A stretch of 64,000 nucleotides of DNA from Salinibaculum litoreum (GCA_009789175.1 CP046867.1:124001-188000), one strand, 5' to 3'; shown: positions 592 to 31,974, numbered from the stretch's first letter. The notes: a model not told the origin generated them from the letters alone. Made by a program: numbers and translations.

Positions 592-869
592 TGCGTTTTC
601 GAAGATCGGCACCATCCAACTGGACCTCTTGTCTGTTGAGGAGAATTAGCCGCACGAATGCTTGGCCGTCTCATACCGTTCAGGTCCCCATAGCTAGGTC
701 GAACTGAGAACAGTGGGCGCGACCTGATATAAGTCTCATCAATAATGGACGGTCAGCCGAGATTGGAAGTCTTAATAATACAGTCGCAGTATATTATTAG
801 TAATTAGCTAAAAATTTCGTATATTTCTCAGTCAGTTTAATAATCACGGCGTAACGAGTTCCCGATAGC
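592..869. other. Divergent intergenic region between TFB and the CDF gene
   Basis: No gene is visible. The part from about 770 to 850 is very AT-rich with several TTTAATA-like and AAAAATTT runs and probably carries the plus-strand promoter of the metal-efflux gene at 870. No metal-responsive operator could be recognised with confidence. Confidence 0.4.
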
Positions 870-9669: not shown

Positions 9670-10596
9670 TCAGACAGCCAGTTCGTCCAGCGCGTCTCGG
9701 TGAGTTCGGACGGTTACTGGAGAGACGTTCGCGACCTCTGCGACGTCCGTCTGTGTGAGCAACTGGCCCTGTTCGTGCCCCGCTTTGTACAGGCAGGCCG
9801 CGGCGAACCCTGACGGGCAGACGCCCGTCGTAACTCCCGTTGATTCCGAGCCCTCCGCTAACCTCCGTGCTCGTTGCCGAATTCGATCGGAGACATCGAG
9901 TTCCGACGCGAGCCGCGGAACGAACGCACTGGGCGTCACGGGCTTGGCCGGGAGGCCGAGTTCCGTGTTCAGCGTCTTGTATGCGTTCGTCACGCGCGAC
10001 TGCTCAACGCGTGCCGGGTTGGTGACGTCGTCAAGGGTTCGCGAGAGCCCGTTGCACCGACAGGCGCCGTAGACGCTCGCGGTGGCCATCGCTTCGATCG
10101 ACCGACCCGGTAGCAGGTCTTCGTTCTGGGCGCTCCGGAAGAGCTGGCACGCCTGGTCACGAATCGTCTCGGACAACTCGAGTGCGCTCACGATCCGGCG
10201 GATCTCGCCGAGGCCGTGTGCGAGGTTGCGCTCGGCTTTCGACTGAAACCGGCCCCGGGTCTGTTCCCGGCGCATCCGGGCTACCTGACGACGTTTCCGC
10301 TCGGAGAGTGTGTTCCCGCTCGCATCAGCGCCACGGCCTATTTCGGTCGATAGGCCCCGGTCGTGTCGCGCCGCAGTCAGTGGCGCACCCGTCCGTTCAC
10401 GTTCGTCCTCATCGAATGCTCGCCATTCAGGCCCGTGATCGATACGCTGCTCGTCGACGATGAGGCCACACTCCTCGCAGACTGTTTCGACCGTATTGGT
10501 GGTGACCCAGCCATCGCATTCGGGACAGTGGTTCGTGTTGGAGTTAGTCTGTACGTCTTCGTCGAATGCCGTCGCGTAGATTTCTCTCGTTGCCAT
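9670..10596 (-). CDS. tfb: Transcription initiation factor IIB (TFB), intact
   Basis: This 308-aa protein recruits RNA polymerase to TBP-bound promoters. The zinc ribbon uses C24, C27, C40 and C43; the B-reader region ([11 protein letters not shown]) follows, then two cyclin-fold repeats (LGEIRRIVSALEL.. and ..FVPRLASELDV) ending with the helix-turn-helix RTHRDALDEL. The start at 10596 is chosen because the zinc ribbon begins directly after it and promoter element C lies 43 bases upstream. Haloarchaea carry many TFB paralogues with partly separate regulons, so this copy may serve the element's own promoters. It is very similar to the broken copy at 1-519. Confidence 0.95.
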   Translation of the reverse strand: MATREIYATAFDEDVQTNSNTNHCPECDGWVTTNTVETVCEECGLIVDEQRIDHGPEWRAFDEDERERTGAPLTAARHDRGLSTEIGRGADASGNTLSERKRRQVARMRREQTRGRFQSKAERNLAHGLGEIRRIVSALELSETIRDQACQLFRSAQNEDLLPGRSIEAMATASVYGACRCNGLSRTLDDVTNPARVEQSRVTNAYKTLNTELGLPAKPVTPSAFVPRLASELDVSDRIRQRARRLAEGSESTGVTTGVCPSGFAAACLYKAGHEQGQLLTQTDVAEVANVSPVTVRTHRDALDELAV

Positions 10597-10639
10597 GATA
10601 CTCACGAGGGGGACCACGCAGATCGCGCATCTCGGAACG

Positions 10640-10668
10640 CCCCTCACCCGTCAGGGGCAGATAAACAC
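10640..10668 (-). promoter_or_regulatory. CCCC/GGGTGAGGGG promoter element, site C
   Basis: The minus strand reads GTGTTTATCTG, CCCC, TGAC, GGGTGAGGGG, 43 bases before the TFB start at 10596. TTTATC is the likely TATA box; the CCCC/GGGG dyad would then lie about where transcription starts. Confidence 0.6.
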
Positions 10669-10810: not shown

Positions 10811-11707
10811 CTACTCCCACCATCGACCGCGCTCGGGGAACAGCACGGTGCTCCACCCGGTCAGGGCCACTGAGACGCGCCCCTGATACCAGTTCCGCGC
10901 CGCCCCGTGAATCCGCACGCGCTCGCCCTCTTCCATCCACGGTTGGTTCGATTTCTCCCAGACGGTCACCTTCGTTCGTCCGCTCTCGTCCTCGATGAGC
11001 CCAACTTGCTGAATCGCCGATGAATCCGTATCCCACAACTGGGTCACGGTTCCCTCGATGCTCACCTCCTTTCGGTTTACGTCCTCGATCTCCCCAATCG
11101 GGATCACCTGGCCCGGCGCCGTTTGTAGCTCCTCGAACACCCCGACGACCGCACTCATCATGTCTTTCCCACCGACGACCGCCTCGGCCAGCCGCCGACT
11201 GATCGCCGCCCGCGACCAATCATCCAGCTTCTTGGCTAACCGCATCGACTGTTCGTTCACAGCCGCCAACTGCGCCTGTTCGAGTTCGACACGTGGGTCC
11301 GGTCGATCCGGGTCTGCCATTGGGTCCACGCTCGCTCTCCGCTTCTGGAACTCCGTTCGCCGCTTCGCACTTCGTTCTGCCGCGATATCTCGCGTCCGCT
11401 TCTCTCGACCCTCCTGCCTTCCGAGTTCGGCCTGGGCACTGATGCGCTCCAGCTCAGCCTCCCGCGCCTTGATGCGCTCTTCCTGTTCGAGGGTTTTCCC
11501 GAACATGTGATCCGGTCCTTCCTCGACTCGCGCGTCCGGATGGTTGGAATCGACTTTCGCCTGTACTTCCATGTCGACCGTCGCCCGGAACTCCGGGGTC
11601 TCCTCGACGACCTCGAAGCCATCCTCGTCGACCGCCGCTTCATCGTGTTTCTCGAATGCCTGTTCATCGACCGAAACTACTTCACTGGTGACGTTCTTAC
11701 TCGACAT
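10811..11707 (-). CDS. OB-fold nucleic-acid-binding protein with coiled-coil front
   Basis: Residues 75-190 are highly charged and predicted coiled coil (EERIKAREAELERI, RRTEFQKRRAS). Residues 205-298 form an RPA-like OB fold (VSIEGTVTQLW.. GRTKVTVWEKSN.. ERVRIHGAARNWYQGRVSVAL), which binds single-stranded DNA or RNA. It could be an element-borne single-strand-binding protein used in replication or transfer. The ATG at 11707 (MSSKNV) is the only good start; the long GC-rich leader lies upstream. Its strand and spacing do not tie it to the TFB gene. Confidence 0.75.
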   Translation of the reverse strand: MSSKNVTSEVVSVDEQAFEKHDEAAVDEDGFEVVEETPEFRATVDMEVQAKVDSNHPDARVEEGPDHMFGKTLEQEERIKAREAELERISAQAELGRQEGREKRTRDIAAERSAKRRTEFQKRRASVDPMADPDRPDPRVELEQAQLAAVNEQSMRLAKKLDDWSRAAISRRLAEAVVGGKDMMSAVVGVFEELQTAPGQVIPIGEIEDVNRKEVSIEGTVTQLWDTDSSAIQQVGLIEDESGRTKVTVWEKSNQPWMEEGERVRIHGAARNWYQGRVSVALTGWSTVLFPERGRWWE

Positions 11708-12260: not shown

Positions 12261-12616
12261 TGTCCAACCGGGCTCGACGCTCAGTGACACAGCCGCTCTC
12301 CTGGTGGACTCAGAAAGGGCGAGGTCGTCTCGGTCGTCCCCCGACTCCGCAAGCACCACAGGTACGAGGAGCGCAGTGTGGGTCGCGGGATGCCGAGCGG
12401 CCGAGGGCTTTCTATTCGTTCTCGGCCACCGCCTGCCGTCTCGACGGAAGCATTATCCTGCACCGTCACGAACGATTTAGTATGCACCACACACCGCCGG
12501 TGCACCAGGTGAACGTGCGGACGATGAGCGCTTGCTCTGTTCTTTCGTAGTTGGTAGCGGCGCCGGCGGGTGTATCGCCTTCTCATCGAGCAGCGACGCC
12601 GCTTTCACCGAGACAA
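12261..12616. other. Upstream region of the release-factor paralogue
   Basis: No gene was seen. A TTTAGTATG segment near 12476 could be part of the plus-strand promoter of the gene at 12617. The reading that would extend that gene to 12551 lacks similarity to the family. Confidence 0.3.
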
Positions 12617-13693
12617 ATGCAGACCACCAAGTACGAACTCCGTGATCGAATCGACCAGCTCACCAACTACCGTGGCGAGGGCACCGAGCTCATCACCGTG
12701 GCCGTCCCGCCAGACAAATCACTCCATACGGTCCGTGAGCGCATCAACCGCGAATATGCACAGGCTGCGAACATCAAATCCGACCAAACACGAACGCACG
12801 TCCAGGACGCTCTCGGACGCATCCGACGCCTCCTCCAAGCGTACGAAGAGACACCACCAAGCGGCCTCGTCATCTACGCCGGAGTCGTCGATGGTGAACT
12901 GCAGGACGCCGTCTTCGACGATCTCGACGTCCCTGTCGACGTCTCACTGTACCGCTGTGCAGCTGAATTCGAGATAACTCCCGTCGAGCAGGCGCTCACC
13001 CCGTCAGAGGTGTACGGTCTGGTCGTCCTCGAACGGGGCCGTGCCGCCCTCGGTCGCCTCGCCGGCGAACGCATCGTTTCCAGCCGGACCTTCGAGAGCC
13101 AAGTGATGGGAAAATCCCGTGCTGGCGGCCAGAGTGCGCAGCGATTCGAACGCGAGCGCGACCGCCAGAAACACGAGTTCTTCGAGCAGGTCGCCGACGC
13201 TGCCGAACAGACGTTCCTCGATGAGCCCACCGTCGATGGCGTCATCCTCGGCGGGACGACGATCACCGTCGACGAGTTCCAGCAGGGTGACTATCTTCAC
13301 CACGAGTTGCGGGACCACATACTAGGCGTCTATCCGATTGAGTACGCGACCAAGCAGGGACTCTCGCAGCTCGTTGAGCGTGCCGAGGACGTACTGTCTG
13401 ATGTTGAGTGCCGACGGGAGCGGGAAGCCCTCGATCGGTTCTTCACGGCGCTGGGACAGGGCGGGGATGTCGCCTACGGAGCTGAAGAGACGCAAACCGC
13501 CCTCGACTATGGAGCGGTCGACGTCCTTCTCGTTTCTGACGGACGGCCACCAGCGGAGATTCGTGAGCTGGAGGCAGCGACGACCGACCAAGGCGGTGAG
13601 TGTCTCGTTGTGTCGACAGACACCGATCGAGGTACCCAGTTCGAGACTGCATTCGGAGGCCTTGGGGCGCTCCTCCGGTTCCGTATTAACTAA
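12617..13693 (+). CDS. Archaeal peptide chain release factor aRF1 paralogue
   Basis: aRF1 recognises stop codons in the ribosomal A site and triggers peptide release. The 358-aa protein keeps both hallmarks: N52-I-K-S55 for stop-codon reading and G170-G-Q172 for peptidyl-tRNA hydrolysis, followed by the third domain (DGDYLHHEL-like QQGDYLHHELRD). Normal haloarchaeal aRF1 has about 415 residues; the missing part is mainly the small zinc-ribbon insert of the third domain, which here is replaced by a short linker before ECLVVSTDTDRGTQF. The gene is probably accessory to a chromosomal copy. It may act in ribosome rescue or give the element a translation advantage; this is inference. Confidence 0.85.
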   Translation: MQTTKYELRDRIDQLTNYRGEGTELITVAVPPDKSLHTVRERINREYAQAANIKSDQTRTHVQDALGRIRRLLQAYEETPPSGLVIYAGVVDGELQDAVFDDLDVPVDVSLYRCAAEFEITPVEQALTPSEVYGLVVLERGRAALGRLAGERIVSSRTFESQVMGKSRAGGQSAQRFERERDRQKHEFFEQVADAAEQTFLDEPTVDGVILGGTTITVDEFQQGDYLHHELRDHILGVYPIEYATKQGLSQLVERAEDVLSDVECRREREALDRFFTALGQGGDVAYGAEETQTALDYGAVDVLLVSDGRPPAEIRELEAATTDQGGECLVVSTDTDRGTQFETAFGGLGALLRFRIN

Positions 13694-17416: not shown

Positions 17417-18688
17417 TTACTCGGAGCCACTCCCGAACAACCGTTTCGTCCGAACCCACACGGACGCTGTCTCGGACCCGTCATCGCATTCACCAGCATC
17501 GACGAGTTGCTCTTCGTGGGTCCGGTCTGTCTCTCGGTCACGATCTGCGAGTTCTTCCGTGAGCCGCTTGATCTCTGCTTCGAGTGTCTCGATACGCTCG
17601 TTTTTCTGTTCGAGCGCTGCCTCGAGTTCGTCGACACGGTCGGTTAACAGCCGATTTTTCTCGGTCAGATACGCGTGACTACGATCTGATTCGTCACGTC
17701 CAGCATCGGTAGTCGACGTACTCGAACTGGCGTGGGATTGCGTGGACTCGTCTCTAGAGTCTGGATCGTAGAACTCTGAGGTATTCGCAATCGCTCGCTC
17801 GATGGTCTTCTCACCGTACGTCGACCCATCGGCGTAGTGAACCTCGTCCCACTTCTCCCGGAGAAGACCTGATTGGCGGAAGAGCTGATCTACCTGTGTT
17901 TGGTCGCCGCCGGTCCAGAACGCCAGCAGATAGCAGAGTGCCATATCGGCTTCCGACTGACTGTCGTATCCGACCGTGTTCCCGTTCCAGAGCCGCTCGA
18001 ACTTCGTCCCGTTCGACGCGTTCGTTGCCTTCTCGAGAAGTTCCTTGTCCTCGAGGTCAACGTCAACCCCGCCTTCACCGTTCGTTGCTGACTGGTCGTC
18101 AGTAGCGCCACGTTGCCCGGACTCGGCCTTCACATCGCTATCCGTGTCTTGGACGTACTCGCGATGGATCGCCACGAGCGCGTCTTGTCGGCGCGCGACA
18201 TGAGTGGGTGTCTCGGCGACGTGGTCGCCCGTGACGGTGAAAAAGCGCGCGGTGTCGTACAGTTCGAAACTCCCGCGGCGGTTCCGGCCCTCCGGTAGTT
18301 CTCCGGTGATGAGCACGTGGTAGCCGGTTCCGGATGGCGAGACCTCCGTATAGGAGTCGAGTCGTTCGATGATGTCCAGTGCCGCGTCGTCGACGTCCCC
18401 GGTCTCGGGATCGCGGCAGTCATCGAGATCCACGCCGACAAAAGGACCATCGTCGGTAAAGACAAATCCTACGCCATCAGCATTCCCGGTCTCGGTGTAT
18501 TCAAGCGCCGTCTCAAAGCTGACCCAGGTGTCTGGATCCGTTGACGAGGCGAGTGCTCCTGTCCCTGGTGTCACCGGTATCTTCGTCGGTTTCCCATCTC
18601 GATCTTCTTCTTTCCAGCACACCCACTGCTCGCGTTCTCGCAAGCTAGCTGGCAGCGCTCTTGTGTCGATTGAGGTGTCAGAATTCAT
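17417..18688 (-). CDS. Primase-polymerase-like replication protein (NrS-1 polymerase type)
   Basis: The first about 170 residues match the N-terminal part of phage NrS-1-like primase-polymerases: LREREQWVCWK, then SFETALEY, then the metal-binding strand FVGVDLDDC and the SGTGYHVLI loop. Residues 230-310 resemble the helical domain that follows it (LCYLLAFWTGGD, VHYADGSTYGEKTI). The end (350-410) is a long coiled coil. It is 423 aa, shorter than phage enzymes, and no helicase domain is attached. It probably initiates or primes replication of the element. Direct repeats lie behind its promoter side at 18851-18932. Confidence 0.75.
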   Translation of the reverse strand: MNSDTSIDTRALPASLREREQWVCWKEEDRDGKPTKIPVTPGTGALASSTDPDTWVSFETALEYTETGNADGVGFVFTDDGPFVGVDLDDCRDPETGDVDDAALDIIERLDSYTEVSPSGTGYHVLITGELPEGRNRRGSFELYDTARFFTVTGDHVAETPTHVARRQDALVAIHREYVQDTDSDVKAESGQRGATDDQSATNGEGGVDVDLEDKELLEKATNASNGTKFERLWNGNTVGYDSQSEADMALCYLLAFWTGGDQTQVDQLFRQSGLLREKWDEVHYADGSTYGEKTIERAIANTSEFYDPDSRDESTQSHASSSTSTTDAGRDESDRSHAYLTEKNRLLTDRVDELEAALEQKNERIETLEAEIKRLTEELADRDRETDRTHEEQLVDAGECDDGSETASVWVRTKRLFGSGSE

Positions 18689-19055: not shown

Positions 19056-22000
19056 TCAGTGATCGAGGAGTGTCTTCCCCTCTTCTGTCAGGGTAAGTCC
19101 GATGTAAAACTGTACGCGGTCACCGTCCACTCTGGATCGGTCGGTATCCAGGTTGACGACATTCCGCAGCTTCCGGGTGAACCAGCCCTTGGTTGTCCCG
19201 TCGAGATCGTGCTGTTCAGTCCAAGTGGCGTACGCCTGAAACAGATCATCCTGTGGAACTTTGGCTCCATCAGCCTGTCTAACGTACATCGCTGTAAACG
19301 CTTCAACACCGTCGCCGTCCGGGTCGATATCCATCGACTCGTCTTTCGATGGCGAATCAGATGCATCGGCATCTAGTGGAGCATCCTCGCCAAGTCCGGT
19401 TATCGAAACCTCGACCCGGTCCGAATCACCGGTGGAATCGTCCGGCCACATCTCCTGGGGGTCGGGGTTCTCGGACAGCCCATACATCTCTCCATGCTGG
19501 AAAATCATCGGGCTACCGTCAGCTGGCAGAATCAGCACGATGTAGCTGTCGCGCGAATAGTCTGCATCTGGTAGATCGATGTCAGGGATGAATGGCCGTT
19601 TGATCGGAACCCAGTCCGCCTCGAAGTCGTCTTTCGAGTCATAGACGCAGGTATCTCCGGGTTCGTGGACAGTGTACTGGCCGGTTTCTCGATCATGGCT
19701 GTAGTAGGCCGGGACGCTGTCTTTGGAGAGCGTTCCCTCGTCTGGAACGCGAGCGAACTCTGTCTCGCCGTCTGAAAGCACGCGCTCGCCGTCGTCTCGC
19801 GTCCAGACCGTGCGATTTGAATCGGATGTGCGTGGCCGAACAGCGGTTACTCCACCGTGAGCCGTCGCACCACCGCCGAACATCACGATCTCGTCACGAT
19901 TATAGAACTGCTCGCTGCCGTCGGCCCGCTCTTGCAGCGGTGGCGAGAGAATGTTCTCGATACGCTTGGCCCACTTCGTGTCCGAATCACCAGGACGGAC
20001 GACGAAGATCGGTATCCGGTCGGTCTCGTGGGCTCGTTTGAGGTTCTGCAAGACTTTCGCAGGCCGGTCAGGTGTCGTCGTCTCGGCCTCGATGTTGAAG
20101 GCGACGTCGTGGTCTGGATGGGTCGCGGTGGCGTCGGGCTGCTCGCTCCCGTCCTGTTCAAGGATATCGACACTGAATCCACGCTCGGTGAGCGCCGTCT
20201 CAGTATCCATGAGTACTGCATCGTGGATCGTTCCGCCTGCCGATCCGACAGCCCCAGTCTCAGGCTGTACCGTCGTTTCCCCCTCGTCGGAGAGACGTGC
20301 GACGATGTCGTCGTTCTCCAGTTTGACTTCGAGTAACCGTGACGCTTCACGCACGTCCGGCAAGTCCTCGTACTCATAGTCAATATCAGGCTGGGTGTTC
20401 TCAAGGCGTACCGAGAGTTCTTCGTCGACGGCGGTGACGTCCACCCAGCCGTTTTCCGTCCGCACATCCTCACGTATTTGCACTGCACGAATTGCCTCCG
20501 CCATCGTTTCATCCAGTATCTTCGTCGGGTTGGCTGCCTCGTTGGCATCGCTGTAGATGAGGTTCTGCATAATCTCAGCGTCGGTCAGCGGGTCGGTCCC
20601 GTACCGGTCTAAACTCTGCTTGATGATGTCGTCGACTGCATCAGCCGACCGAAGCGGTGGATACGGCGGAAACGAGCGGAGGAGGACCGGTTCAGAGTAC
20701 CGACCACCGTCGAGAGGCAGTTTCGTCCAGGCCTGATACTGGTCGGTCGAAATGAGGTCCTCTGCCGTGTAGTCTCGGAACCGCTTCATCAAGAGCTGGG
20801 CGTCGTCGACGTCGTTCACCGAGAAGGCGATGAGGTTGTCACAGTTGTTCTGCATCGCCTTGAGCGTATCCTCGTCGAACTGTGAGGGGTACTGGGAGGC
20901 GAGCGTCACGGAGAGCCGCATCGATCTGGCGCGGGCGAGCATCGACTCGATATCGAGATTGTCGCTCGCGATGTCGTCGAACTCGTCACAGAGGACGAAG
21001 TAGGGGTCCGGGTCGGTATCGCATTCGTACGACCGCTGTTGAATTGCGCTCCAGAGGTTTCGCATCACGCCGAGCGTGACCATCTTCTTGATGTCCGTGT
21101 TCTCGACGGGCGTGCGGACGATGACGATTCGGTCGTTGTCGATGATATCGCGGAAGTTGATGGTGCTCTCTCGGTGGGAGATGATTCGCCGGATGACCGA
21201 GTTTTCGACCCATGATTTGATCCGCTTGAGCAGCGGCCGGACTGTCTCGTCGTCCATCCGTGCGATTTCGAGACAGAATTCGCGCACATACGGATCGTCG
21301 ACGTCGAGGGCGAACTCTTCGCGCCGTTCGGCGTTCAACAGCGTGAAGTACATATCGATCACCGAGAACGATTTCTCGGACTGCATCATCGCCCGGCCCA
21401 TCGACTCCGTGATTGACTCCATGTTGATCCCCCAGTACTCGTCCGTATCGAAGATCGCCTTCAGATTCTCAATGCGATTCTCGATCTCGTTTTCGCGTTC
21501 CTCCTCGGTATTGCAGTCGGGAACCTCGAGGAAGTTCAGCCCGACCGTCTTATCGTGTTCGGATGAGCCGGGCTCGATCCAGACGACGTCGTCCAGACGG
21601 TCTTCGGGGAGTTTCCGCAGGAGTTCACGGGAGTCGCGACCTTTCGGGTCGAAGTATACGAAGCCGTAGCCTGAATACGCCCACTGCACCATCATATTCA
21701 GGAGCTCGGTGGTTTTTCCGTAGCCGGTGGTGCCCGTAATCCAGATGTGACGGAAGAGCGACTCGAAGCGGAGCGGTGCTTCACGAAAGCCTCGTTGCGC
21801 GTCCTCGTCGTAGCCGATCCAGAGTGGGGCGGGCGAGGTATCAACTCCTGATTCGAACATCTCTCGGACGTGCGACCCTGCGACAGTGCCCTCACCTGCT
21901 GTTTCGGTGATGACGGACTTCCCACCAACGTAGGCCGTGTCTCGCTCACTGATATCGTACGTTTCGCCGAGTCGGGTCTGGGAAGCCGGTGGTGAATCGG

Positions 22001-22124
22001 ACGTTGAACGCTCGTCTCCGCTGGTCTGCGAAGTGGAATCTACTTCCTCGTCTTCTGTGGGCTTCTCGGACAGTGGAGGTGACTCCTCGGAGTCGCCACG
22101 ATCGAAGAATCGGTCAAACACCAT
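19056..22124 (-). CDS. VirD4/TraG-like coupling ATPase
   Basis: This protein would bring DNA to the transfer channel. The 1022-aa protein has a Ser/Glu-rich head, then a HerA/VirD4-type motor: Walker A GTTGYGKTT near residue 133, strand FVYFDPKG, and Walker B FVLCDEFDD near 378, followed by the motif SQYPSQFDE. The C-terminal half has a nuclease-like region (HPDHDVAFNIEAET) and an unknown end with a DLDGTTKGWFTRKLR winged-helix-like segment. The start at 22124 (MVFDRFFDRG) overlaps the previous stop by 11 bases and is preferred; upstream ATGs would increase the overlap. It is the last gene of the transfer operon. Confidence 0.8.
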   Translation of the reverse strand: MVFDRFFDRGDSEESPPLSEKPTEDEEVDSTSQTSGDERSTSDSPPASQTRLGETYDISERDTAYVGGKSVITETAGEGTVAGSHVREMFESGVDTSPAPLWIGYDEDAQRGFREAPLRFESLFRHIWITGTTGYGKTTELLNMMVQWAYSGYGFVYFDPKGRDSRELLRKLPEDRLDDVVWIEPGSSEHDKTVGLNFLEVPDCNTEEERENEIENRIENLKAIFDTDEYWGINMESITESMGRAMMQSEKSFSVIDMYFTLLNAERREEFALDVDDPYVREFCLEIARMDDETVRPLLKRIKSWVENSVIRRIISHRESTINFRDIIDNDRIVIVRTPVENTDIKKMVTLGVMRNLWSAIQQRSYECDTDPDPYFVLCDEFDDIASDNLDIESMLARARSMRLSVTLASQYPSQFDEDTLKAMQNNCDNLIAFSVNDVDDAQLLMKRFRDYTAEDLISTDQYQAWTKLPLDGGRYSEPVLLRSFPPYPPLRSADAVDDIIKQSLDRYGTDPLTDAEIMQNLIYSDANEAANPTKILDETMAEAIRAVQIREDVRTENGWVDVTAVDEELSVRLENTQPDIDYEYEDLPDVREASRLLEVKLENDDIVARLSDEGETTVQPETGAVGSAGGTIHDAVLMDTETALTERGFSVDILEQDGSEQPDATATHPDHDVAFNIEAETTTPDRPAKVLQNLKRAHETDRIPIFVVRPGDSDTKWAKRIENILSPPLQERADGSEQFYNRDEIVMFGGGATAHGGVTAVRPRTSDSNRTVWTRDDGERVLSDGETEFARVPDEGTLSKDSVPAYYSHDRETGQYTVHEPGDTCVYDSKDDFEADWVPIKRPFIPDIDLPDADYSRDSYIVLILPADGSPMIFQHGEMYGLSENPDPQEMWPDDSTGDSDRVEVSITGLGEDAPLDADASDSPSKDESMDIDPDGDGVEAFTAMYVRQADGAKVPQDDLFQAYATWTEQHDLDGTTKGWFTRKLRNVVNLDTDRSRVDGDRVQFYIGLTLTEEGKTLLDH

Positions 22125-23241
22125 TATGTCCTCTGTTGTCAGCATTGTGTTCGTTGGCATCTCCGCTGTCGGTGGGCGGTTCGTATTGGCCTGCGTCGGC
22201 GGGCACGCGGTCACCGCGTTGCGTGTAGCGCCAGTCGATGTTCGGCGTCTCGATCTCGTTGTTCGGGATGTGTGCGACGCCGGCGAGTTCGTCGACAGTC
22301 ATGATCATCCGCCGGTCAGTCCACTCGCGGTCAGCCATCCGGGTGATATGCTTGCGGAGTTGACTCGCACGCTTGCCGTCCTTCCGATGCCACACCGGCG
22401 TATCGTCGAGACCCTGCTCGGTGATCGCGTTGTAGTACTTTCTGAACATCCCGGCGACGCCACGGGCCCGAGCCTCGGCTTCGTCCTTGTCCGCCGAGAT
22501 TGCGACGACACGGATGTTGACGTGGAACGCCTGTTGACCGCGCTGCTGCTCGATAGTTTTGGCGGCTTGCTTGTCCTTCTCGCTTGCTGGCCGCGTGCGG
22601 GGATTGAGCCAGCCGACCGACGTTCCCTGGCGGAGCGCGTGGGCGAGGTCGTCGACGCTGTTGTGCTTGAACCGGTCGCCACCGGTCCAGGACTGCTTGG
22701 CCGGTCGAAAGATGACCTGCGTAATGACCTTGCTATCGTCGAGCGAGAGCATCTCGCTCGTGATCTCGCCATATGGATCCGTCTCCCACTCCTCGCTGTT
22801 GTGGTGGCGAATCGGGTAATAGGGGAGCTTCTCCATCTCTAGCCACGCACCAGCGACGTACTCGTCGGGCTCGATGACGGGGAAGGCAGCCCCACCTTCG
22901 ACGGGGAAGACCTCGCTGTTTGCGTAGTTGTTCCCAACGCGCCGGCGAAACTTGTCGGCGGCCGCCTCGGTCGCAGCGTGCATGTAGAACTTGATCTTCC
23001 CCTCGTCGAACCAAACCTCAAACGAATGATGGTCACTCGTGTTCTTCCCCCGGAAGTTCGTCGTCACGTCGTGAACGGACTGTAGGAGACCGGCGCCGTC
23101 GACGACTCCCTGATTCTCTTTGAACGGGCGAATCCTGAGCAAGATACCCGGCGCACTCTCCGGGTGCTGGACGAACGGCTCTTCGAACTCAAGTTGTGTT
23201 GCGTCGTACTGCGGGTTGCCACCCAGGAGTTGACTAAACAT
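22114..23241 (-). CDS. Conserved transfer-operon protein, partner of the VirB4 and VirD4 ATPases
   Basis: The 375-aa soluble protein lies between the two ATPase genes and overlaps both (8 and 11 bases). It has the plan of the regions that precede the motor in VirB4-type proteins: EFEEPFVQHPES, a strand FYMHAATEAAADKFRRR, then FHVNIRVVAIS followed by AEARARGVAGMFRKYYN. It probably forms a module of the coupling complex, split off as its own gene. No catalytic motif was seen. The start at 23241 (MFSQLLGG) is chosen for the tight overlap. Confidence 0.65.
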   Translation of the reverse strand: MFSQLLGGNPQYDATQLEFEEPFVQHPESAPGILLRIRPFKENQGVVDGAGLLQSVHDVTTNFRGKNTSDHHSFEVWFDEGKIKFYMHAATEAAADKFRRRVGNNYANSEVFPVEGGAAFPVIEPDEYVAGAWLEMEKLPYYPIRHHNSEEWETDPYGEITSEMLSLDDSKVITQVIFRPAKQSWTGGDRFKHNSVDDLAHALRQGTSVGWLNPRTRPASEKDKQAAKTIEQQRGQQAFHVNIRVVAISADKDEAEARARGVAGMFRKYYNAITEQGLDDTPVWHRKDGKRASQLRKHITRMADREWTDRRMIMTVDELAGVAHIPNNEIETPNIDWRYTQRGDRVPADAGQYEPPTDSGDANEHNADNRGHNGV

Positions 23242-26200
23242 CGTCGGTACCCTCCTCATTGGACTGGACAGCGTCGTCTCCGCCGTCAGCGAGGGCGGAC
23301 GTCTCTACCGTACCGTTCCGCTGTGCGTTCGCGACGACCGCTTCGACGATCTCGTCTTCGGTGAACCCCTCATCGAGAATGCGCGTGGCCTCGTCCTCGC
23401 AGAGGTCGTAGCGGTTGGTAAGCGCGTTCAGTCGCGCCTCGTTCTCCACGAATCCCTCGAAGTCGACGAGATCCTCGGGTTCGGCACTAATCGTCTGCTG
23501 GATGAACTCGCGATCGTCGGGCTCGTAGTCGATAACGCGCTTCTCGAACTCGTCAGCGACGACGTGCAGCGGGTACGTCCCGTGTTCTTCAACGCGGACG
23601 AGCGCCTGACTGTAGCCAAGGTCCTCCTTGCCTGCGTCGGCCCCACGGATGTACTGGCGCTGCTCGCGCGTGAGCCCGATTTTGTCGGCTGTCTCGTCAT
23701 CCAAATCAGGCAGTTTGTGGAAGACTTTGATAGGGCACATACCGAGAATCTTCTCGGCCTGGTCGGTCTCGTAGAACTCCTGGGCAGTCTGGGACAGCAG
23801 CACCATTCGAAGGCCGGCGTGGCGCTGGTGCCGGAACGCCGTTTCGAGGAAATCGAGATTCGCCTGGTCTTCGAACAGGTAGTGCGCCTCGTCGATGGCG
23901 AGTTCGACATTTCGATCGGTCTTCTTTGCCTGCTGGTAGACCGTCGACAGGAGTAGTTGCATCAGGAACGTCTGGCGGTCGATCCCAGACGCACTTCCCT
24001 CAATCTGCCCGAGGTCGATGTAAACGACCTTATTGTCGCCTTCGAGGATATCGATCTCCGACCGCTCTGAGAGATTCGCGTACGCGCCACCCTCACGGAA
24101 CGGCTGGAATGCAATGGCGAGTTCGTCGGCGTACTGTGCGGCGCGCTCGCGGGCAGATTCGGACGCTGCGATGTTGTGTTCGTCCGGATGGTCGGCAATA
24201 TCTGCGAGAATCCGATGGATGTCCGTCATCGTCGGCGAATTCTCGGGGGTATGAGTGCTGACGTCGTCCTCGACGACTCCTGTCTGTCGATATGCTTCGT
24301 CGATGACGTACGAGAGCACGCCCGTTTCGGTTCCGAGATTGATATCGCGAGCGGTCAGGAAATTCTCAAGGACTGCGTACACCTCGTCCTTCTTCGCGGA
24401 CAACGGTGAGATACCGTCCTCGGAATCGAGCACCTCCTGGGGCGTCTCACGGATCTCCAGGGGATTCAGCTGTGTGTCGCCCCCGACAGAGATCGTCTTC
24501 GCGTTCAGCGCGTCGGCGATGCCTTTGAACCCACCGACAGGGTCGATCATGACGAGCATCGTCTCTTGCTGGCGCTTCATCATCCGCAAGTGGCGCATGA
24601 TATCGCCGAACGTCTTCCCCGCACCGGGCATTCCGACGACGAGTTCGCTGTGGCCGGTTTCGAGCTCCCAGGGATTGATCTGGACAGGTGAGCCGTTGTG
24701 TCCGTGGTAGCCGTATTCGACGCCGTCGTCCATCATCATGTAGTTCGAACTGAAGGGGAACATCGCGCCGACCGCCTGGTTCGTCAGCGTCGACATCCGG
24801 TCGCGACCAAGCTCATTCCGACCGAGGGGTGAGACTGTCGCAAGCCCCTTCTCCTGCCAGCGGTTCGCTACTTTGAGCGTACAGTTCGCGGGCGCGTCTT
24901 TGACAATCGAGCGCAGACGCGTCGACTGGTTGTCGAGTTTCTGCTTGCTCTCGGCAGAGAGTCGGATGAAGACGCCTCCACGGTAGAATGACGCCTTATT
25001 CGCCCGGACAAGCGACCGCATGAACTTCCCACGGTCGATGTCCTCCTGGAGGTCCTCAGCTTTGAGGCTATTCGAGTCGTGCTGGTTGACCTTCAAATCC
25101 GAAATCCAGTCGGCCATCATGTCCTCGGCCGACTGGTTGTCGAATGGATCGAGATGGATGCTGATGTCCGTCTGCAGTTCGGTCTCCAGCAACAATCGCT
25201 CGAGCATCCCGTCGGCAGGTTCCTCCGGGAACTGCTCGATCCAGAACATCCGGACGTACGTTTCGTCGTTGATGACGGCGTAGGTCGTCTCCCAGTCGAC
25301 CGTCGACGGCGCAATAACCGACTGATGCAACGTCGACGTATCATCGAGGCGGTCCTCATAGTCGACGTCCGTCTTGTCGTCCGTTTCTGCGGCCTCACTA
25401 TCTTCACTGTCAAGGTCATCGACGGAGACATCCCACTCGTCGCTCTGATCGTAACCGTCGGTCGAAGCGCCACGCCTGCTGTACTGGCCATCGTCCATCG
25501 AATCGACGACGTCGTCTGGGTCTGGCGTCGACGGCACGTCGTCGCTGATACCGTGTGCAACGACCGGGAACGTGCCGATCGCGTCAGTGATATCGCCGTA
25601 CTCCTCAGTGCGCCCCGTCCAGTATTCTTTGGTCACACGAGTGAGGTCGTAGGCGTCCACCGGACTGACCGAACAGCGGTAGAGCGACGACCCACCCCGG
25701 CGGATCTGACCGAGCCGGGATTCCAGCTTGTCCTCTTTGAGACGATCACGCTCGGCTTCAGAGAGGCCGTCAGACTGGAACCGCCCGAATACGTGTCCAA
25801 GCATAGGGATATTAGCGAGGTAGGCGAGGACGCTATCATTGGTTTCGTCGAGCTGTTCGACGTCGGCATCGCGAACGGCGGTGATGATGTAGTATTCGCG
25901 GATGGTCGTAGTCTCGGAGTCGATATCACCATTCGAGTCGGTGTTGTTCGTAATGTACTCTTCGAGCAGTCGTTTGAGAACGGGCCGCGACCGGACGTCG
26001 GCGTCGCCAAGACGACGCTGGTGGTCGCGGACGACGTCGTCCTGGTCGACCTCCCGGCTAGTGAGATAGAACTTCACGGGGAAGTCGATGGTCGCATTGA
26101 CAAACTCGGAGAGCGATTGGACGGCTTTCGCCCACGCCTCCTCGTCTTCGAGCGCCATGTTCGCGGGTTCGACTTTCATCGCACCGACGAGCGCGCCATC

Positions 26201-26578
26201 GGAGCGCTCGATAGCGTGCGGGAATACCTGACCAACGCGGGTTAGGTACCGAACTTCGCTGTTGTCCTCGCCGTGGGTGTACTCCTTGTTCTTGACCGCC
26301 CAGCCGAGACGGGCCGCGAGCCACTCGGTGAGCCACAGGTAGGAGGGTTTTACTTTGTGAAGTATCCCGAGGACGAGGCCGAGCATGAGGCCGAACCCGA
26401 GAACGGGAATCGTGAAGGTGGCTGGAACCAGTGCTGCGCCGACGAGGGTGATGAACGCGACGCCGACAAACAGCATGATCTCGCCGATGGTGTACCCCTG
26501 GAAGAACGCGGTCGTCCCGCCCAGGGACTGGTGAATTCGTCGGGCACTATACTCGTGATCGTCAGTGTTCGTACTCAT
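23234..26578 (-). CDS. VirB4/HerA-like transfer ATPase with membrane N-terminus
   Basis: This is the central motor of a type IV secretion-like apparatus. The 1114-aa protein starts with two or three membrane segments (about residues 25-75, YTIGEIMLFVGVAF.., GFGLMLGLVLGIL), which resembles a VirB3 unit fused to VirB4. The ATPase carries Walker A VGMPGAGKT near residue 645 and Walker B LAIDEAHYLFED near 898. An acidic, low-complexity insert (about 350-420, EDSEAAETDDKTD) separates the two parts. It overlaps the following gene by 8 bases and is preceded by the VirB6-like gene at 6 bases. Confidence 0.85.
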   Translation of the reverse strand: MSTNTDDHEYSARRIHQSLGGTTAFFQGYTIGEIMLFVGVAFITLVGAALVPATFTIPVLGFGLMLGLVLGILHKVKPSYLWLTEWLAARLGWAVKNKEYTHGEDNSEVRYLTRVGQVFPHAIERSDGALVGAMKVEPANMALEDEEAWAKAVQSLSEFVNATIDFPVKFYLTSREVDQDDVVRDHQRRLGDADVRSRPVLKRLLEEYITNNTDSNGDIDSETTTIREYYIITAVRDADVEQLDETNDSVLAYLANIPMLGHVFGRFQSDGLSEAERDRLKEDKLESRLGQIRRGGSSLYRCSVSPVDAYDLTRVTKEYWTGRTEEYGDITDAIGTFPVVAHGISDDVPSTPDPDDVVDSMDDGQYSRRGASTDGYDQSDEWDVSVDDLDSEDSEAAETDDKTDVDYEDRLDDTSTLHQSVIAPSTVDWETTYAVINDETYVRMFWIEQFPEEPADGMLERLLLETELQTDISIHLDPFDNQSAEDMMADWISDLKVNQHDSNSLKAEDLQEDIDRGKFMRSLVRANKASFYRGGVFIRLSAESKQKLDNQSTRLRSIVKDAPANCTLKVANRWQEKGLATVSPLGRNELGRDRMSTLTNQAVGAMFPFSSNYMMMDDGVEYGYHGHNGSPVQINPWELETGHSELVVGMPGAGKTFGDIMRHLRMMKRQQETMLVMIDPVGGFKGIADALNAKTISVGGDTQLNPLEIRETPQEVLDSEDGISPLSAKKDEVYAVLENFLTARDINLGTETGVLSYVIDEAYRQTGVVEDDVSTHTPENSPTMTDIHRILADIADHPDEHNIAASESARERAAQYADELAIAFQPFREGGAYANLSERSEIDILEGDNKVVYIDLGQIEGSASGIDRQTFLMQLLLSTVYQQAKKTDRNVELAIDEAHYLFEDQANLDFLETAFRHQRHAGLRMVLLSQTAQEFYETDQAEKILGMCPIKVFHKLPDLDDETADKIGLTREQRQYIRGADAGKEDLGYSQALVRVEEHGTYPLHVVADEFEKRVIDYEPDDREFIQQTISAEPEDLVDFEGFVENEARLNALTNRYDLCEDEATRILDEGFTEDEIVEAVVANAQRNGTVETSALADGGDDAVQSNEEGTDDV

Positions 26579-26584
26579 GAATCG

Positions 26585-27787
26585 TCACCACCGCGAAACC
26601 TTGCTTTTCGTGTTCCTGAACGCCTGCTTCGACCGGGCTTTCGCGGCCTGTGTGGCCTGACTCGCGTCTTTTTTCGCTTTGTCGCGCATTCGACCGGTAC
26701 TCGACTTCCGGAGGTTGTTGTAGCGGCCTGCATGGTCTTTCGTTGACTGCGCAGACGAGCCGAGTTTGTAGGCTTTTGAATCGCCGCTACCGAGCTGGGT
26801 CTGCCCGCTCTTTGTCACCGGGCCAGCTTTATTCTGGGCGTATCCTCGATGGACGTTCCGGGCACCGCGTGCGGCTTTCCCAGTGCCTCGCTTTGCGGTG
26901 TTCTTCGCTTTCGGTGCGCCCTTCGCGGTTGCACCTGCGCCTGAACTTGCTACCCGCTGTAGTGTGGGTGCGCTCCAGTAGATGGTTAGAATACTTGCAA
27001 TGCAGGCTGCAGGGATGAGCGAGAGACCGAGAACCAACGCGAACAGCGCACTCAATCCGCTAGCTGGGTCGGTCTGCCATCCAAGTCGGAACAGAACTGC
27101 CGCTGGAATTCCGGCGATGATGAGCCCTGGATAGATACTCGCTCCACGCCGGGCGATGTTCGACATCGAATTGAGTGGCCAGACATCAACAGCCCACAAC
27201 ACGCCGAGTAACGGCATCAACGGCGTCAATACGATCACACCTAGCCATCGGAGGCCATAGACGAACGCGGCTGCGAGTAGGAGGATGTTCTCTACGAACA
27301 CCATCACCAGTGCCGCGATCAGCCCTCCGAGTCCCGCTTTCGCCAATCCACCCAACCCAGCGGACATCTCTCCGATGGGTGCGAGCGTCATCCCAATCGC
27401 GTTCACGAACTGGAGGGGAATCGAGATGAGCGGGAACCAGACGAACGATCCCATGAACACGATGCCAATACGACGGAGGAGTCGCTTCCGCCGATACTCG
27501 CTAATTGACCCCGCTCGAAGTCCGACAAATGCGAGGGCGATAACTAACAGCATGACCGTCAGTGGCAGGATATACGGGAGATAGAAATCCTGGTAGATGG
27601 ACTGCCACGGATCGTTCGATGGCGTTCCAACAACGATGTACTGGGAGTCGGATTCCGGAGCCGGAACACCGACAATCGGCTCTAAGAGAGCTTGGAAGAT
27701 GTCTTCTGCTAATCCAATCAGCCCCTCCTTTATCCGGGTGAGGACATCGTTGATGGCGTTCTCAACCTGCTTTTCTAGCCAACCCAT
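26585..27787 (-). CDS. VirB6/TrbL/CedA-like polytopic membrane protein
   Basis: The 400-aa protein has an amphipathic front (EKQVENAINDVLTRIKEGLI), about six to seven membrane segments between residues 70 and 275 and a long, basic, Lys/Ala/Ser-rich C-terminal tail (from about 285). This is the plan of VirB6-type channel components. The basic tail probably faces the cytoplasm and could touch DNA or the ATPases. It lies directly between the lipoprotein and the VirB4-like gene; its ATG follows the lipoprotein stop after two bases. Confidence 0.75.
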   Translation of the reverse strand: MGWLEKQVENAINDVLTRIKEGLIGLAEDIFQALLEPIVGVPAPESDSQYIVVGTPSNDPWQSIYQDFYLPYILPLTVMLLVIALAFVGLRAGSISEYRRKRLLRRIGIVFMGSFVWFPLISIPLQFVNAIGMTLAPIGEMSAGLGGLAKAGLGGLIAALVMVFVENILLLAAAFVYGLRWLGVIVLTPLMPLLGVLWAVDVWPLNSMSNIARRGASIYPGLIIAGIPAAVLFRLGWQTDPASGLSALFALVLGLSLIPAACIASILTIYWSAPTLQRVASSGAGATAKGAPKAKNTAKRGTGKAARGARNVHRGYAQNKAGPVTKSGQTQLGSGDSKAYKLGSSAQSTKDHAGRYNNLRKSSTGRMRDKAKKDASQATQAAKARSKQAFRNTKSKVSRW

Positions 27788-27789
27788 CT

Positions 27790-28691
27790 TCAGGACTCAC
27801 TCTCCTTGCCTGCAGTTTGTGAAGAGTCGGTGGTTTCGCTATCGACGATGGTGAGTTCACAAGCGCCCTCCTCGCCACCGTACTCGATCATCTGTGAGAA
27901 CGATGAGTTAGCCCCCGGTTCGACGGTAGCGGTCAGGTGCAGCGTTTTCGTGTCGATCTTCTCGCATTCAACGGAAGACGCACCGACGAGACCACCGCTG
28001 GTCTCGTAGACCGGCGGTATCGCATAGATTGTCGTCGTTTTATTTGGTGGGAGTACCTTCGGATGATCGAATGTCTGTTCGTCCTCATCAGTGCGAAGGA
28101 CGAACGGCGCGTTCCGCCACCGAGTGCGGTGAGCATTGCAGGTCCGCTCCCTCTGTTTTCCAGATGGAATGCGGCGTGTGTCTCCCAGTTATTCGCTGAC
28201 TTATCCCACCCCATGTACGGGTGGTTTTTCGCCCAATGGAAGCTGGTGAGTGACACTTCAGGTTCAAGGTCGACCGTCATACCGCCGACTGGTTCGTCGT
28301 TCTTAACGGCGGCGAGACGATGCTCTCCAGGTGTATAGCCGTCGACGTTCTGCCCGACAAGATCGAATTGCGCTTCCCGGCCGTCCAGTGCTACCTTCGC
28401 CTTCTCTGCAAGATTCCCGTCTGGTCCAAAGCGATGTACCCACCTGGCGGACATATCACGAGCAAGTGTGACGACGAGCTGGCCGGCGTCAACTCTAACA
28501 CCGGCGAACGTATCTGACTGTGCTACAGGCGGCTCAGTTGCCGTATCAGTACTGTTTGTGGGGGTGTCGCTGTCAGTATCAGAGTTGTCTGTACAACCGG
28601 CGAGGGCGACGAGTGTTCCGGTGAGCCCACTGAGAACCATTCGACGGCCAATACGCCTATCGTGACTGGATGCGTCTGTAGTGTCGTTCAT
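27790..28691 (-). pseudogene. Tat lipoprotein of the transfer operon, one frameshift
   Basis: The start at 28691 opens a Tat signal (RRMVLSGLTG) with lipobox LAGC, then a Ser/Thr/Asp-rich linker and a beta-rich extracellular domain. At about 28113-28118 the coding signal moves to the next frame, where it continues with NAPFVLRTDEDEQ and runs cleanly to a stop at 27790, two bases before the VirB6-like ATG. One missing base explains it. Together the two parts give about 300 aa. It would be a surface-anchored part of the transfer apparatus. The frameshift may be a sequencing error since everything else is intact. Confidence 0.7.
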
Positions 28692-28693
28692 GT

Positions 28694-30436
28694 TCAATTT
28701 GAGAGACCGAGTAGTGCGCCATCGGACATGTAGTCGAAGCCGAAGATCAGGACTGCGAGCGGAATGAACCAGAGAATTGTCACGACGACGAGCTGGATGA
28801 GCGTCTGGAAATCGGGATAGTTCCCTGGCATCTTTGCAACATCCGTTGCCATTGCGTAGGGTCGGTCCGTCCGCCACCACTCGGATGGCTGGTACTGCCC
28901 TCGTACGAGCGCCCCTGGATTCGAGAGTGTGAGGGTGGCCATCCCACTGCTGTTCAGCGCCGCAGACTGGTTGCGGACCGTCACGCGACCGTTGGTCACA
29001 GCCGTGCCGGTCGCTGTTTCCGCGACCGTCGCACGGACGACCGCGTGTGTCGCGTTGGCGTTGGTAACCGTGAGAGTGAGCGTCGTCTCGCGGACAGTCT
29101 GTTGCTCCGAGAGGGAGACTGTTCGTGATTGCCCGCGGACGATGCCTTGTACTGTGACCTTTCGGAAGGCGCTCTCGTCGAGGGTTGTGGAACTAACAGC
29201 TATCGAATCTGCGTTCACGTATGGGTCAGCAGACTCGAGATCGATGTTCACCGGCAGCGACGGCCCTGCCAGCTCTGTCCCCCACGTTTCCTTGATGGCA
29301 AGTGGGCGCTTTCCGTCGTCGGTCGGTTCAGTCGGTACGTACGGCGCTTGCTGACTCGGGAACGCATGAACCTGAACGGGACGTACCGACGACTCAGCCT
29401 GTGACGTATTAGTCGCAGTGCTCGTAACCATCGTCTGCCAGCCGGACCTTCCGGCCGTGTAGAACCACCAGTTGCTCCGGGCTCGAACATTGCCGTTGAC
29501 CGTAATCGTCGACCACTCGGTGTTCGGATGGACGACTGCGCCGACCCGGTCTTCGTAAGCCTCAAACTGGACGCGGTTTCCAGAAATGTCGGAAAGTTGG
29601 TTGACAACGACGGTCTGTGACGTCGACACCGTTTTCGACGCTTCGAGGGTTTCGATGTCACGAGTCCAATCCCCGTCACAACTGGATATCGAGGAGTTCC
29701 AGTCTGGACAATCCAGTGTGACATGACGGAGTTGTACCGTAATATTGGCCTCGACGGTCAGCTGCGGTGATCCCGAGAGGTCGGTATATTGAAGCGTTGC
29801 CTGATGGCCGCTCCCAGTGTCGATGGTTCGCCCATCAGCGGAGAGTTCAACAGATTCGATACTCGTTCGGTCGATCGACCAGTAATCACGCTGTGACCCG
29901 TTCTGATCACCCTGGGGAACAGCAACGCGGTAGTCACTGAGTGCGCGGACCTGGCCGTCTGGAGCAACGTAGTGCGTCGTCTCGTTCCCTTGGTGGAGGA
30001 TCGTCGACGGTTGGGTGGCGAAGATACTGACATACGCATCCTTGATGTACACACCGTCTTCGAGGGATGCACTTTCAGGATGAATAGACGAATCTCGGTC
30101 ACCAGAACTGTAATCACCGAAATCTCCATTGTTCCAGTCCCCAGCAGCCTGTGGTGGCTGATCGGACGGGATGTCCGTCGACCGGGCAAGTCGGTGTGCG
30201 AATTCGGCGCGCGATGAAACATTTGCACCGTCGAAATCGTCGGCTGAGAGATTGCCGTTGTCGGCATCCTCGGACCAGAGACGCTGAAACGTACTGTTAT
30301 TCACGCCGTAGTCCGGTCCATCGTCAGGAACAGTAGATCCTGAATCGGGAGGCATGCCTCCCGCGACGACAACTATAGCGCTGCTGCTCACGAGAAAGAG
30401 GGCAAGCACGGCAGCCATCGGACGGGGGGAGTGCAT
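28694..30436 (-). CDS. Large secreted protein with C-terminal membrane anchor
   Basis: The 580-aa protein has an N-terminal Sec-type signal or anchor (MAAVLALFLVSSSAIVVVAG), an extracellular, Asn/Ser/Thr-rich body with several N-x-S/T sites, a beta-rich stretch (TLTLTVTNANATHAVVRATV) and a final membrane helix (LIQLVVVTILWFIPLAVLIFG is about residues 545-566). The single pair of cysteines CPDW..CDGD could form a disulfide. It is conserved in position between pilin-like and lipoprotein genes, so it is probably the outer, cell-contact part of the machine. No homology is recognised. Confidence 0.65.
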   Translation of the reverse strand: MHSPRPMAAVLALFLVSSSAIVVVAGGMPPDSGSTVPDDGPDYGVNNSTFQRLWSEDADNGNLSADDFDGANVSSRAEFAHRLARSTDIPSDQPPQAAGDWNNGDFGDYSSGDRDSSIHPESASLEDGVYIKDAYVSIFATQPSTILHQGNETTHYVAPDGQVRALSDYRVAVPQGDQNGSQRDYWSIDRTSIESVELSADGRTIDTGSGHQATLQYTDLSGSPQLTVEANITVQLRHVTLDCPDWNSSISSCDGDWTRDIETLEASKTVSTSQTVVVNQLSDISGNRVQFEAYEDRVGAVVHPNTEWSTITVNGNVRARSNWWFYTAGRSGWQTMVTSTATNTSQAESSVRPVQVHAFPSQQAPYVPTEPTDDGKRPLAIKETWGTELAGPSLPVNIDLESADPYVNADSIAVSSTTLDESAFRKVTVQGIVRGQSRTVSLSEQQTVRETTLTLTVTNANATHAVVRATVAETATGTAVTNGRVTVRNQSAALNSSGMATLTLSNPGALVRGQYQPSEWWRTDRPYAMATDVAKMPGNYPDFQTLIQLVVVTILWFIPLAVLIFGFDYMSDGALLGLSN

Positions 30437-30488
30437 TCTATTCCGGGCGAGGGGCGCGGGGACAGTTCGCTGGCGACCTTAGATGGAC

Positions 30489-30974
30489 TTAGAAGGGCTT
30501 CACGCAGTCCGAGAAGCCAAAGCCCATCTGACTGCCGACCTTGTCGATGAGTTCGGGCGAGATGAGTGCGAGGGTGACGATGCCGAAGCCGATGCCGGAC
30601 ATGACGAGTTTTTCCTTGGCATCGTTCTTCTTCTCGGGGTTCCCGCCGGCGCGCATGTACGAGAGGCCAGCCTTCCCGGTGTAGAAACCGGTTGCAGGGA
30701 GGCCGAGACCAGCGACCGCGCCGAACACGAGGTCAATCCCTGTCGCAACGCCAGTGTCACAGTACACGTCGCCGACCTGGCTCTGTGCGGCGGCCGGGCC
30801 AACAGCGATAACGAGGAATGCGAGCCCCATCGAGAGGGAGACAAACCGCGGGGGCGCTCGGGCGAGGATTGTTTTGAGACGGTGGCTGATCGTCGACTCG
30901 GTGGTCTGGTCGGTAGTAGGGGCTGTTTCAGTTGACGGTGCATCGCTCGCGGGGTCAGAGGGTGCTTGACTCAT
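30489..30974 (-). CDS. VirB2/TrbC/CedA1-like pilin candidate
   Basis: The 161-aa protein has a Ser/Thr/Pro-rich cytoplasmic head of about 40 residues, a signal-like hydrophobic helix ending in a possible cleavage region (VGPAAAQS), then two further membrane helices separated by a short polar loop with YMRAGGNPEKKNDAKEK. This is the plan of VirB2-type pilins: long leader, two hydrophobic helices, short basic loop. Two cysteines (YCDTG, SDCVKP) flank the mature part and could form a disulfide. It is the second gene of the operon, a usual place for pilins. Confidence 0.6.
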   Translation of the reverse strand: MSQAPSDPASDAPSTETAPTTDQTTESTISHRLKTILARAPPRFVSLSMGLAFLVIAVGPAAAQSQVGDVYCDTGVATGIDLVFGAVAGLGLPATGFYTGKAGLSYMRAGGNPEKKNDAKEKLVMSGIGFGIVTLALISPELIDKVGSQMGFGFSDCVKPF

Positions 30975-30991
30975 AGTCGTTTTCTGGGGAG

Positions 30992-31261
30992 CTAGTCGGT
31001 GGAAGGGTCTGCTTCGAGCAGGGCGTTTATATCCTCCATGCTGGAGGTCTGTTCGAGGAGGTCATCGAGGTCTCGGTCAGTATCGATGAGCGCCTCCTCG
31101 GTGAGCGTCGAGAGTTCGTTGCGGTCGATATCTCGGTAAGCCATCTGCTCGTCCAATGCCTCACGGAAGAGCCCGGATGCGTTGATGCCGGTCGCCCAAC
31201 TGAGGAATAACGCATCGGCGGGCATGATCGACACAGTGGTGTTGACGGTGTTCCGTGACAT
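30992..31261 (-). CDS. Small acidic protein at the head of the transfer operon, 89 aa
   Basis: It has a short N-terminal strand (NTVNTTVSIMP) and helices (ALDEQMAYRDIDRNEL, TDRDLDDLLEQTS) which could form a ribbon-helix-helix-like regulator, but no firm family match was made. It is the first gene behind the operon promoter with its dyad at 31310-31336, and may therefore regulate the operon. Confidence 0.5.
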   Translation of the reverse strand: MSRNTVNTTVSIMPADALFLSWATGINASGLFREALDEQMAYRDIDRNELSTLTEEALIDTDRDLDDLLEQTSSMEDINALLEADPSTD

Positions 31262-31726: not shown

Positions 31727-31974
31727 TTAGCAGACTTCCAACGAGCGAATTCCTGCCGATATCATTCCGGTATCAATCCATGGCCCATCCTCGTCGTGGC
31801 TGACAAGTCGGCCCTCGTTCGTCCCCGCTATCATATCCCCGTCGGCGGCAGACCACGCGAGGATGACCTAAGTCGGCCCACCATGATACGACCGTTCCTC
31901 AAAGGTCTCACCGCGATCCGTTGATTTCAATAGTACCACGTCGGCACCTCTCTCACCGCTCCACGTCCAAAAAA
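31727..31974 (-). pseudogene. Fragment of a BNR/WD40-like repeat protein
   Basis: The minus-strand frame ending at 31727 contains two repeats of the type found in BNR, YCF48 or WD40-like beta-propellers: VLLKSTDRGETFEERS and AGTNEGRLVSHDEDGPW. An amber stop (TAG) lies between the two, and no start exists upstream. It is a decayed piece of a larger propeller protein. Confidence 0.6.

Follow-up and report, generated by a model that had tools for sequence, protein, structure and literature searches.

The stretch of DNA analysed here, 64,000 nucleotides long and referred to as the window, belongs to a 316-kb plasmid (G000:C2) of Salinibaculum litoreum. It matches CP040680.1, plasmid unnamed2 of Halostella pelagica DL-M4, from which it differs by 1 base over 21.2 kb. 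The operon it carries is real: all eight tightly joined minus-strand genes that an earlier note on this DNA had read between 19056 and 31261 were confirmed as open reading frames, and their overlapping or near-touching joints consist of overlaps of no more than 11 bases or gaps of 6-52 bases on a single strand. By its position we count the primase gene as the ninth member of the set, because it is found directly after the coupling-protein gene in all checked relatives of the same class (Table 1). Upstream of the operon lies a remnant gene (31733-31966, minus strand), which Natrinema pellirubrum pNATPE02 still has in full (311 aa).

Table 1. Features of the operon and of the plasmid that carries it. 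Positions refer to the window unless another record is given.
Feature	Position	Strand	Basis
AEP-type primase, 423 aa, helix-bundle domain and coiled-coil tail, last gene of the set	17417-18688	-	phrog_1829, PF22763, motifs
VirD4/TraG-type coupling ATPase, soluble, about 1022 aa	19056-22124 (probable; ORF open to 22214)	-	PF12696, PF02534, PF10412
Coupling-protein C-terminal domain, like primase-helicase C-terminus	19074-19346	-	phrog_1829 positions 673-760
PD-(D/E)XK-like domain inside coupling protein, candidate nickase/relaxase	19881-20267	-	invariant residues, fold matches, MOBC alignment
Detached N-terminal domain of coupling protein ("split partner"), 375 aa	22114-23241	-	phrog_5156, hhalign
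VirB4-type ATPase, N-terminal membrane span(s) in VirB3-like position	23234-26578	-	NF045971, NF045975
TrbL/VirB6 channel protein, 6 predicted TM spans, basic tail	26585-27787	-	PF19590
Tat lipoprotein gene, RRMVLSG...ALAGC	27790-28691	-	frameshifted near 28128; intact in CP040680.1
Surface protein, 580 aa, N- and C-terminal hydrophobic spans (signal and anchor)	28694-30436	-	TM prediction
T4SS pilin, VirB2-like	30489-30974	-	PF18895, NF045849
Small acidic protein, 89 aa	30992-31261	-	conserved in L004, L007, L008
OB-fold (RPA-like) protein, conserved across T4SS plasmids	10811-11707	-	
ArdC-like protein, conserved across T4SS plasmids	G000:C2:104271-105209	-	

The lipoprotein frame is broken in the window assembly, where one C present in CP040680.1 is missing near 28128. 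In CP040680.1 the gene is intact, has 300 codons and takes up nearly all of the space between the surface-protein gene and virB6, and two lipoprotein relatives align to the window in two frames. A sequencing error is the likely cause of the frameshift. The Tat lipoprotein proposed earlier does exist as a gene, but the ORF as read was frameshifted; ORF 27933-28880 was rejected as a misreading, since it changes frame near 28128 relative to CP040680.1. The start of the coupling gene was placed at 22124, probably its true start, because its relatives begin approximately 30 codons inside the ORF.

We compared the encoded proteins with profile models of known families. The VirB6 protein was matched by PF19590 (TrbL/VirB6, E = 1.9e-15, 57.1 bits, Pfam cut-off 23), and its last 120 residues contain 29 K/R versus 4 D/E, in line with the basic tail described before. 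The pilin candidate was matched by PF18895 (T4SS_pilin, E = 9.3e-9, 35.7 bits, cut-off 26.6) and by the NCBIfam model NF045849 (E = 4.6e-5). For the VirB4 protein we obtained NF045971 (1.1e-50), NF045975 (2.5e-43) and TIGR00929 (4.8e-17), all below their equivalog or subfamily cut-offs, and a transmembrane span was predicted at residues 34-52, where a membrane front had been suggested. The VirD4-like ATPase was recognised by PF12696, PF02534 and PF10412, all above the Pfam cut-offs; no transmembrane span was predicted in it, i.e. the usual membrane anchor is absent. The VirB6, pilin and coupling-protein Pfam matches, together with the VirB4 models, support the type IV secretion-like DNA-transfer operon of the earlier note. 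That note had also considered that the ATPases might belong to the HerA repair type only, which the profile search did not bear out: with PF01935 (DUF87) the coupling protein scored 12.7 bits (cut-off 23.2) and VirB4 gave no match at E 1. VIA-align rows played no part in the exclusion of families.

The large surface protein, described earlier as anchored, does carry hydrophobic spans at both of its termini. It had no family match, and its profile gave nothing against PDB chains. Homologues 26-32% identical to it are encoded in the operons of Haloarcula and Haloferax, and both it and the lipoprotein occur in these versions, so neither of them is the lineage-specific part that it had been taken for. 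The 89-aa protein, with only sub-threshold RHH/CcdA matches in Pfam, is a possible RHH-type regulator. In our view the operon very probably encodes a conjugation machine that belongs to the plasmid and is of the reduced, single-membrane type.

The "split partner" had likewise been regarded as lineage-specific, and it appears instead to correspond to the coupling protein's N-terminal domain; on other plasmids the two are made as one chain. The N-terminal part of phrog_5156 matches the partner and its C-terminal part matches the coupling protein, in that order. The partner also aligned with the N-termini of the single-chain homologues (hhalign prob 91, E = 1.1e-6), which are 1387 and 1456 residues long in Haloferax lucentense and pNG600; on these two plasmids it is the VirB4 gene that comes in two pieces. 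Against PDB chains the partner profile gave nothing, and the idea that it is a VirB4 relative was dropped, as HHalign returned no match.

The ninth gene was matched by the DNA primase family phrog_1829 (E = 2.9e-95) and by PF22763 (E = 4.6e-31). Its motifs DxD, SPSGTG(Y/F)H and RFFTVT(G/A)D, which we take to be those expected of the AEP superfamily, are invariant in 13 homologues. The C-terminus of the coupling protein matched positions 673-760 of the same phrog_1829 (E = 4e-4), and this domain thus seems similar to the C-terminus of plasmid and phage primase-helicases.

Five independent genomes (L004, L005, L007, L008 and L009: Natrinema pallidum, Halorussus litoreus, Halobacterium sp. CBA1126, Halorussus halobius and a Haloarcula MAG) share nearly the whole gene set with the window, arranged alike as pilin, surface protein, lipoprotein, VirB6, VirB4, partner, coupling protein and primase. 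This order was found also on plasmids annotated for Natrinema, Halorussus, Halomontanus and Haloterrigena. Identity to the five genomes is approximately 70-98% for most genes, with the lipoprotein more variable; the 89-aa gene is absent in L005 and just 44% identical in L009. Judged by dN/dS, the genes are under purifying selection (0.04-0.24 for all tested genes except the 89-aa ORF, where dS was too small for a usable ratio). No viral relatives were confirmed in IMG/VR, and among phages a relative was found only in Bacillus phage G (20%); the operon is probably not part of a virus. In the model archaeon Halobacterium salinarum NRC-1 we observed a decayed copy of the operon on pNRC100 (L020, 11989-16170), consisting of pilin, surface protein, lipoprotein and a shortened VirB6, with no VirB4 there.

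The earlier note had seen no relaxase in the window and had left the DNA-processing step unexplained. The first part holds for the known families that we searched, i.e. PF03432, PF08751, PF25227, PF13814 and the pNG500 relaxase. PF03432, PF08751 and the pNG500 relaxase gave no match over cut-off on the genome of the window and its sister plasmids, and PF25227 gave none on the plasmids. PF13814 (Replic_Relax) had no match in the genome of the window at E 0.01 and none among the members of set A2; the haloarchaeal matches to this model were all under cut-off, and many of them came from short ORFs and covered the N-terminal half of the profile. We would say that the operon works like, rather than is, a classical relaxase-driven system, because the plasmid has no match to the searched relaxase families. 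The second part of the claim no longer stands as it was put, as two results, a swap of modules and a nuclease-like domain, offer a concrete candidate.

On pNG500-type plasmids the pilus and channel genes are homologous to those of the window and lie in the same order. There virB4 is followed by two NikA-like genes (PF21983 matches sub-threshold), a MOBP-type relaxase (PF03432 above cut-off) and a TrwB-type coupling protein (PF10412, E = 3e-30, 4 predicted TM spans). In the window class none of these module genes is present, and virB4 is followed by the soluble coupling protein with its extra C-terminal domains and by the primase. The window-type coupling protein gave no match at 1e-6 to the coupling proteins of pNG500 and Haloarcula halophila. 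Among 36 pilin-bearing plasmid records, the primase and the window-type coupling protein occur in 19 and the relaxase with the pNG500-type coupling protein in 12, a split that follows two clades and may represent one or two evolutionary events. The two modules were never found together (0/36), the primase being absent on direct checking from 3 of the 12 relaxase-type records and, for the rest, absent among the 60 best matches listed. Neither module was found in the remaining five records, which are four NRC-1 records with the decayed copy and NC_010366. We regard it as likely, from these comparisons of sequence, that the DNA-processing module has been swapped. Each module was met also where virB4 is lacking, the coupling protein with primase on a Halobaculum limi plasmid (L104, 10000-15519) and the relaxase with its coupling protein on a plasmid of Halomarina sp. 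BND7 (L107, 11510-14072); such stand-alone modules are possible mobilizable elements.

Past the coupling ATPase the window protein contains a domain with the motif H..PD..ExE..K (H664, P693-D694, E709-x-E711 and K720, numbered from 22214). The residues H664, P693-D694 and E709-x-E711 are invariant in a diverse set of proteins bearing the domain, including Haloferax, pNG600 and Haladaptatus relatives, while the Haladaptatus relative does not retain K720; the domain is missing from the coupling protein's distant relatives. The position of the usual catalytic Lys is occupied by Glu, as it is in MOBC. Modelled alone, the domain gave low confidence (mean pLDDT 48.7, pTM 0.45) and the order helix, three strands, helix, strand. 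A fold search with this low-confidence model placed PD-(D/E)XK nucleases first, the best being VRR_NUC (Foldseek prob 1.00, E = 0.0086; Z 9.2, rmsd 3.0 over 91 residues), and other matches included Hjc resolvases, TnsA, Bax1, DdmD and FAN1. The sequence profile of the domain had no meaningful match among PDB chains and Pfam. A model of the whole coupling-protein C-terminus (508 aa) was discarded (pLDDT 39.7).

MOBC relaxases are related to the PD-(D/E)XK superfamily (PMC12857230, PMC6499999). We aligned the domain with a profile of six MOBC proteins, for which intact relatives were used because the frame of CloDF13 mobC is broken in its record. The alignment spans all motifs (E = 0.0021, prob 13%, score 27.0), while the best of 40 column shuffles scored 18.0 and the reversed profile 8.4. 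An earlier comparison with two near-identical MobC sequences had given prob 1% and E = 0.05, and the result improved with six. The order of motifs (H, PD, ExE, K) is the same as in CloDF13 MobC and pAD1 TraX, and at each of the six MOBC loci examined the coupling-protein gene has the relaxase gene directly after it, which parallels the order of domains within the window protein. The window domain differs from MOBC in being inside the coupling protein, in having no PF13814 match and in that the N-terminal winged helix of MobC was not seen there. By motif and predicted fold the domain thus appears to resemble MOBC and not to be a member of it, as PF13814 has no match. We propose tentatively, as a candidate that may well prove wrong, that in this large group of conjugative plasmids from haloarchaea the relaxase is part of the coupling protein itself, in the form of a fused MOBC-like PD-(D/E)XK domain. 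PD-(D/E)XK is a broad fold, and the domain could instead be a DNA-end or junction nuclease or be inactive. We found no account of the module swap or of the nuclease-like domain in the openly accessible literature.

Taken as a whole, the reading of a conjugation machine with a swapped module and a built-in candidate nickase is the one we favour, with moderate confidence. The PD-(D/E)XK-like domain would nick the plasmid as MOBC relaxases do, and the coupling ATPase would pass single-stranded DNA to the VirB4/VirB6 channel, so that one protein would both nick the DNA and feed the secretion channel, with a dedicated primase encoded beside it. Cell contact would be made or stabilised by the surface protein and the lipoprotein, the co-encoded primase would prime second-strand synthesis, and the ArdC-like and OB-fold proteins of the plasmid would protect the single strand. 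The ArdC-like protein (ArdcN and M78 matches just under cut-off) was found in 8/9 other plasmids, and 1098/1394 plasmids carrying its relatives are typed as mobilizable or conjugative.

The same machine might instead depend on a nick made by an unrecognised or host relaxase, e.g. of the Rep-Arvir/DUF7845 type, while the domain would only trim or sense DNA. A DUF7845 protein (Rep-Arvir type replication endonuclease) is encoded on the organism's own chromosome (G000:C1:2300470-2301468), the family has been linked to archaeal integrative and conjugative elements (PMC13107129), and many plasmid genes have no assigned function. We consider this unlikely, though a serious alternative: a search of 13 records of related plasmids gave no DUF7845 match, and there is no second conserved candidate within the operon. 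Transfer might also proceed without a relaxase, the ends being produced by host HerA-NurA-like nucleases with no site-specific nick, as proposed for Ced/Ted. Archaeal conjugative plasmids are reported to have no recognisable relaxases, and a HerA-NurA route has been put forward (PMC9905601). This seems improbable, as systems with closely related pilus genes rely on a MOBP-type relaxase and as the operon is plasmid-borne with a plasmid-encoded primase and is not a chromosomal import system.

In proteobacteria, T4SS that have no recognised relaxase are often regarded as protein secretion systems (PMC3158045), and by that analogy the operon could serve protein secretion or adhesion and not DNA transfer. 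The primase in the operon, the ArdC-like and single-strand-binding proteins on the plasmids, the presence of homologues on many plasmids and the relaxase in sister operons make this very improbable. Our preferred reading, the conjugation machine with a built-in candidate nickase, addresses a gap already noted in 2011, when archaeal VirB4 and coupling proteins without a relaxase were described and unknown relaxases were suspected (PMC3158045); the same gap was stated for archaeal conjugation in 2023 (PMC9905601) and 2025 (PMC12857230).

Of the systems described before, that of Haloarcula marismortui pNG500, the only plasmid of archaea that was named as conjugative in 2011 (PMC3158045), shares pilin, surface protein, lipoprotein, VirB6 and VirB4 in the same order (approximately 24-63% identity across the class). 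It differs in its two NikA-like proteins, MOBP-type relaxase and TM-anchored TrwB-type coupling protein, in place of which the window encodes a primase and a soluble coupling protein in two pieces with extra domains. The T4SS of Gram-positive and mycoplasma ICEs (the CD1110 VirB4 family; Mbov_0395/0397) gave the best curated VirB4 and pilin matches and have a similarly reduced single-membrane set; however, the scores are below the equivalog cut-offs, the window surface protein and lipoprotein are unmatched, and the searched relaxase families have no match. Ced/Ted belong to the same VirB4/VirB6/VirB2 homology class (PMC9905601), whereas the window operon is plasmid-borne and comes with a coupling protein and a primase. 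The special closeness to Ced/Ted suggested earlier did not hold up: the CedD model reached only 21.7 bits with the window proteins (cut-off 600), over the P-loop alone.

The same pilus and channel genes are thus accompanied by one or the other of two DNA-processing modules, of which just one includes a known relaxase, and this natural swap points, for the nicking step, to a few candidate proteins and, in one of them, to 4-5 residues. Haloarchaeal DNA exchange has been proposed to occur via cell fusion (PMC7838353), and the operon is a candidate route for the spread of plasmids in haloarchaea.

Other genes of the plasmid include one of eRF1 type with all three domains (archaeal release factor aRF1-like; window 12551-13693, plus strand) and TFIIB-like (TFB) genes (window 133-615 and 9670-10647, minus strand) in a backbone common to sister plasmids. 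On the chromosome we observed a second VirB4-type ATPase (PF19044, PF12846; G000:C1:579693-584077, L100:9693-14077) followed by a membrane-rich gene, and this locus is possibly another transfer element.
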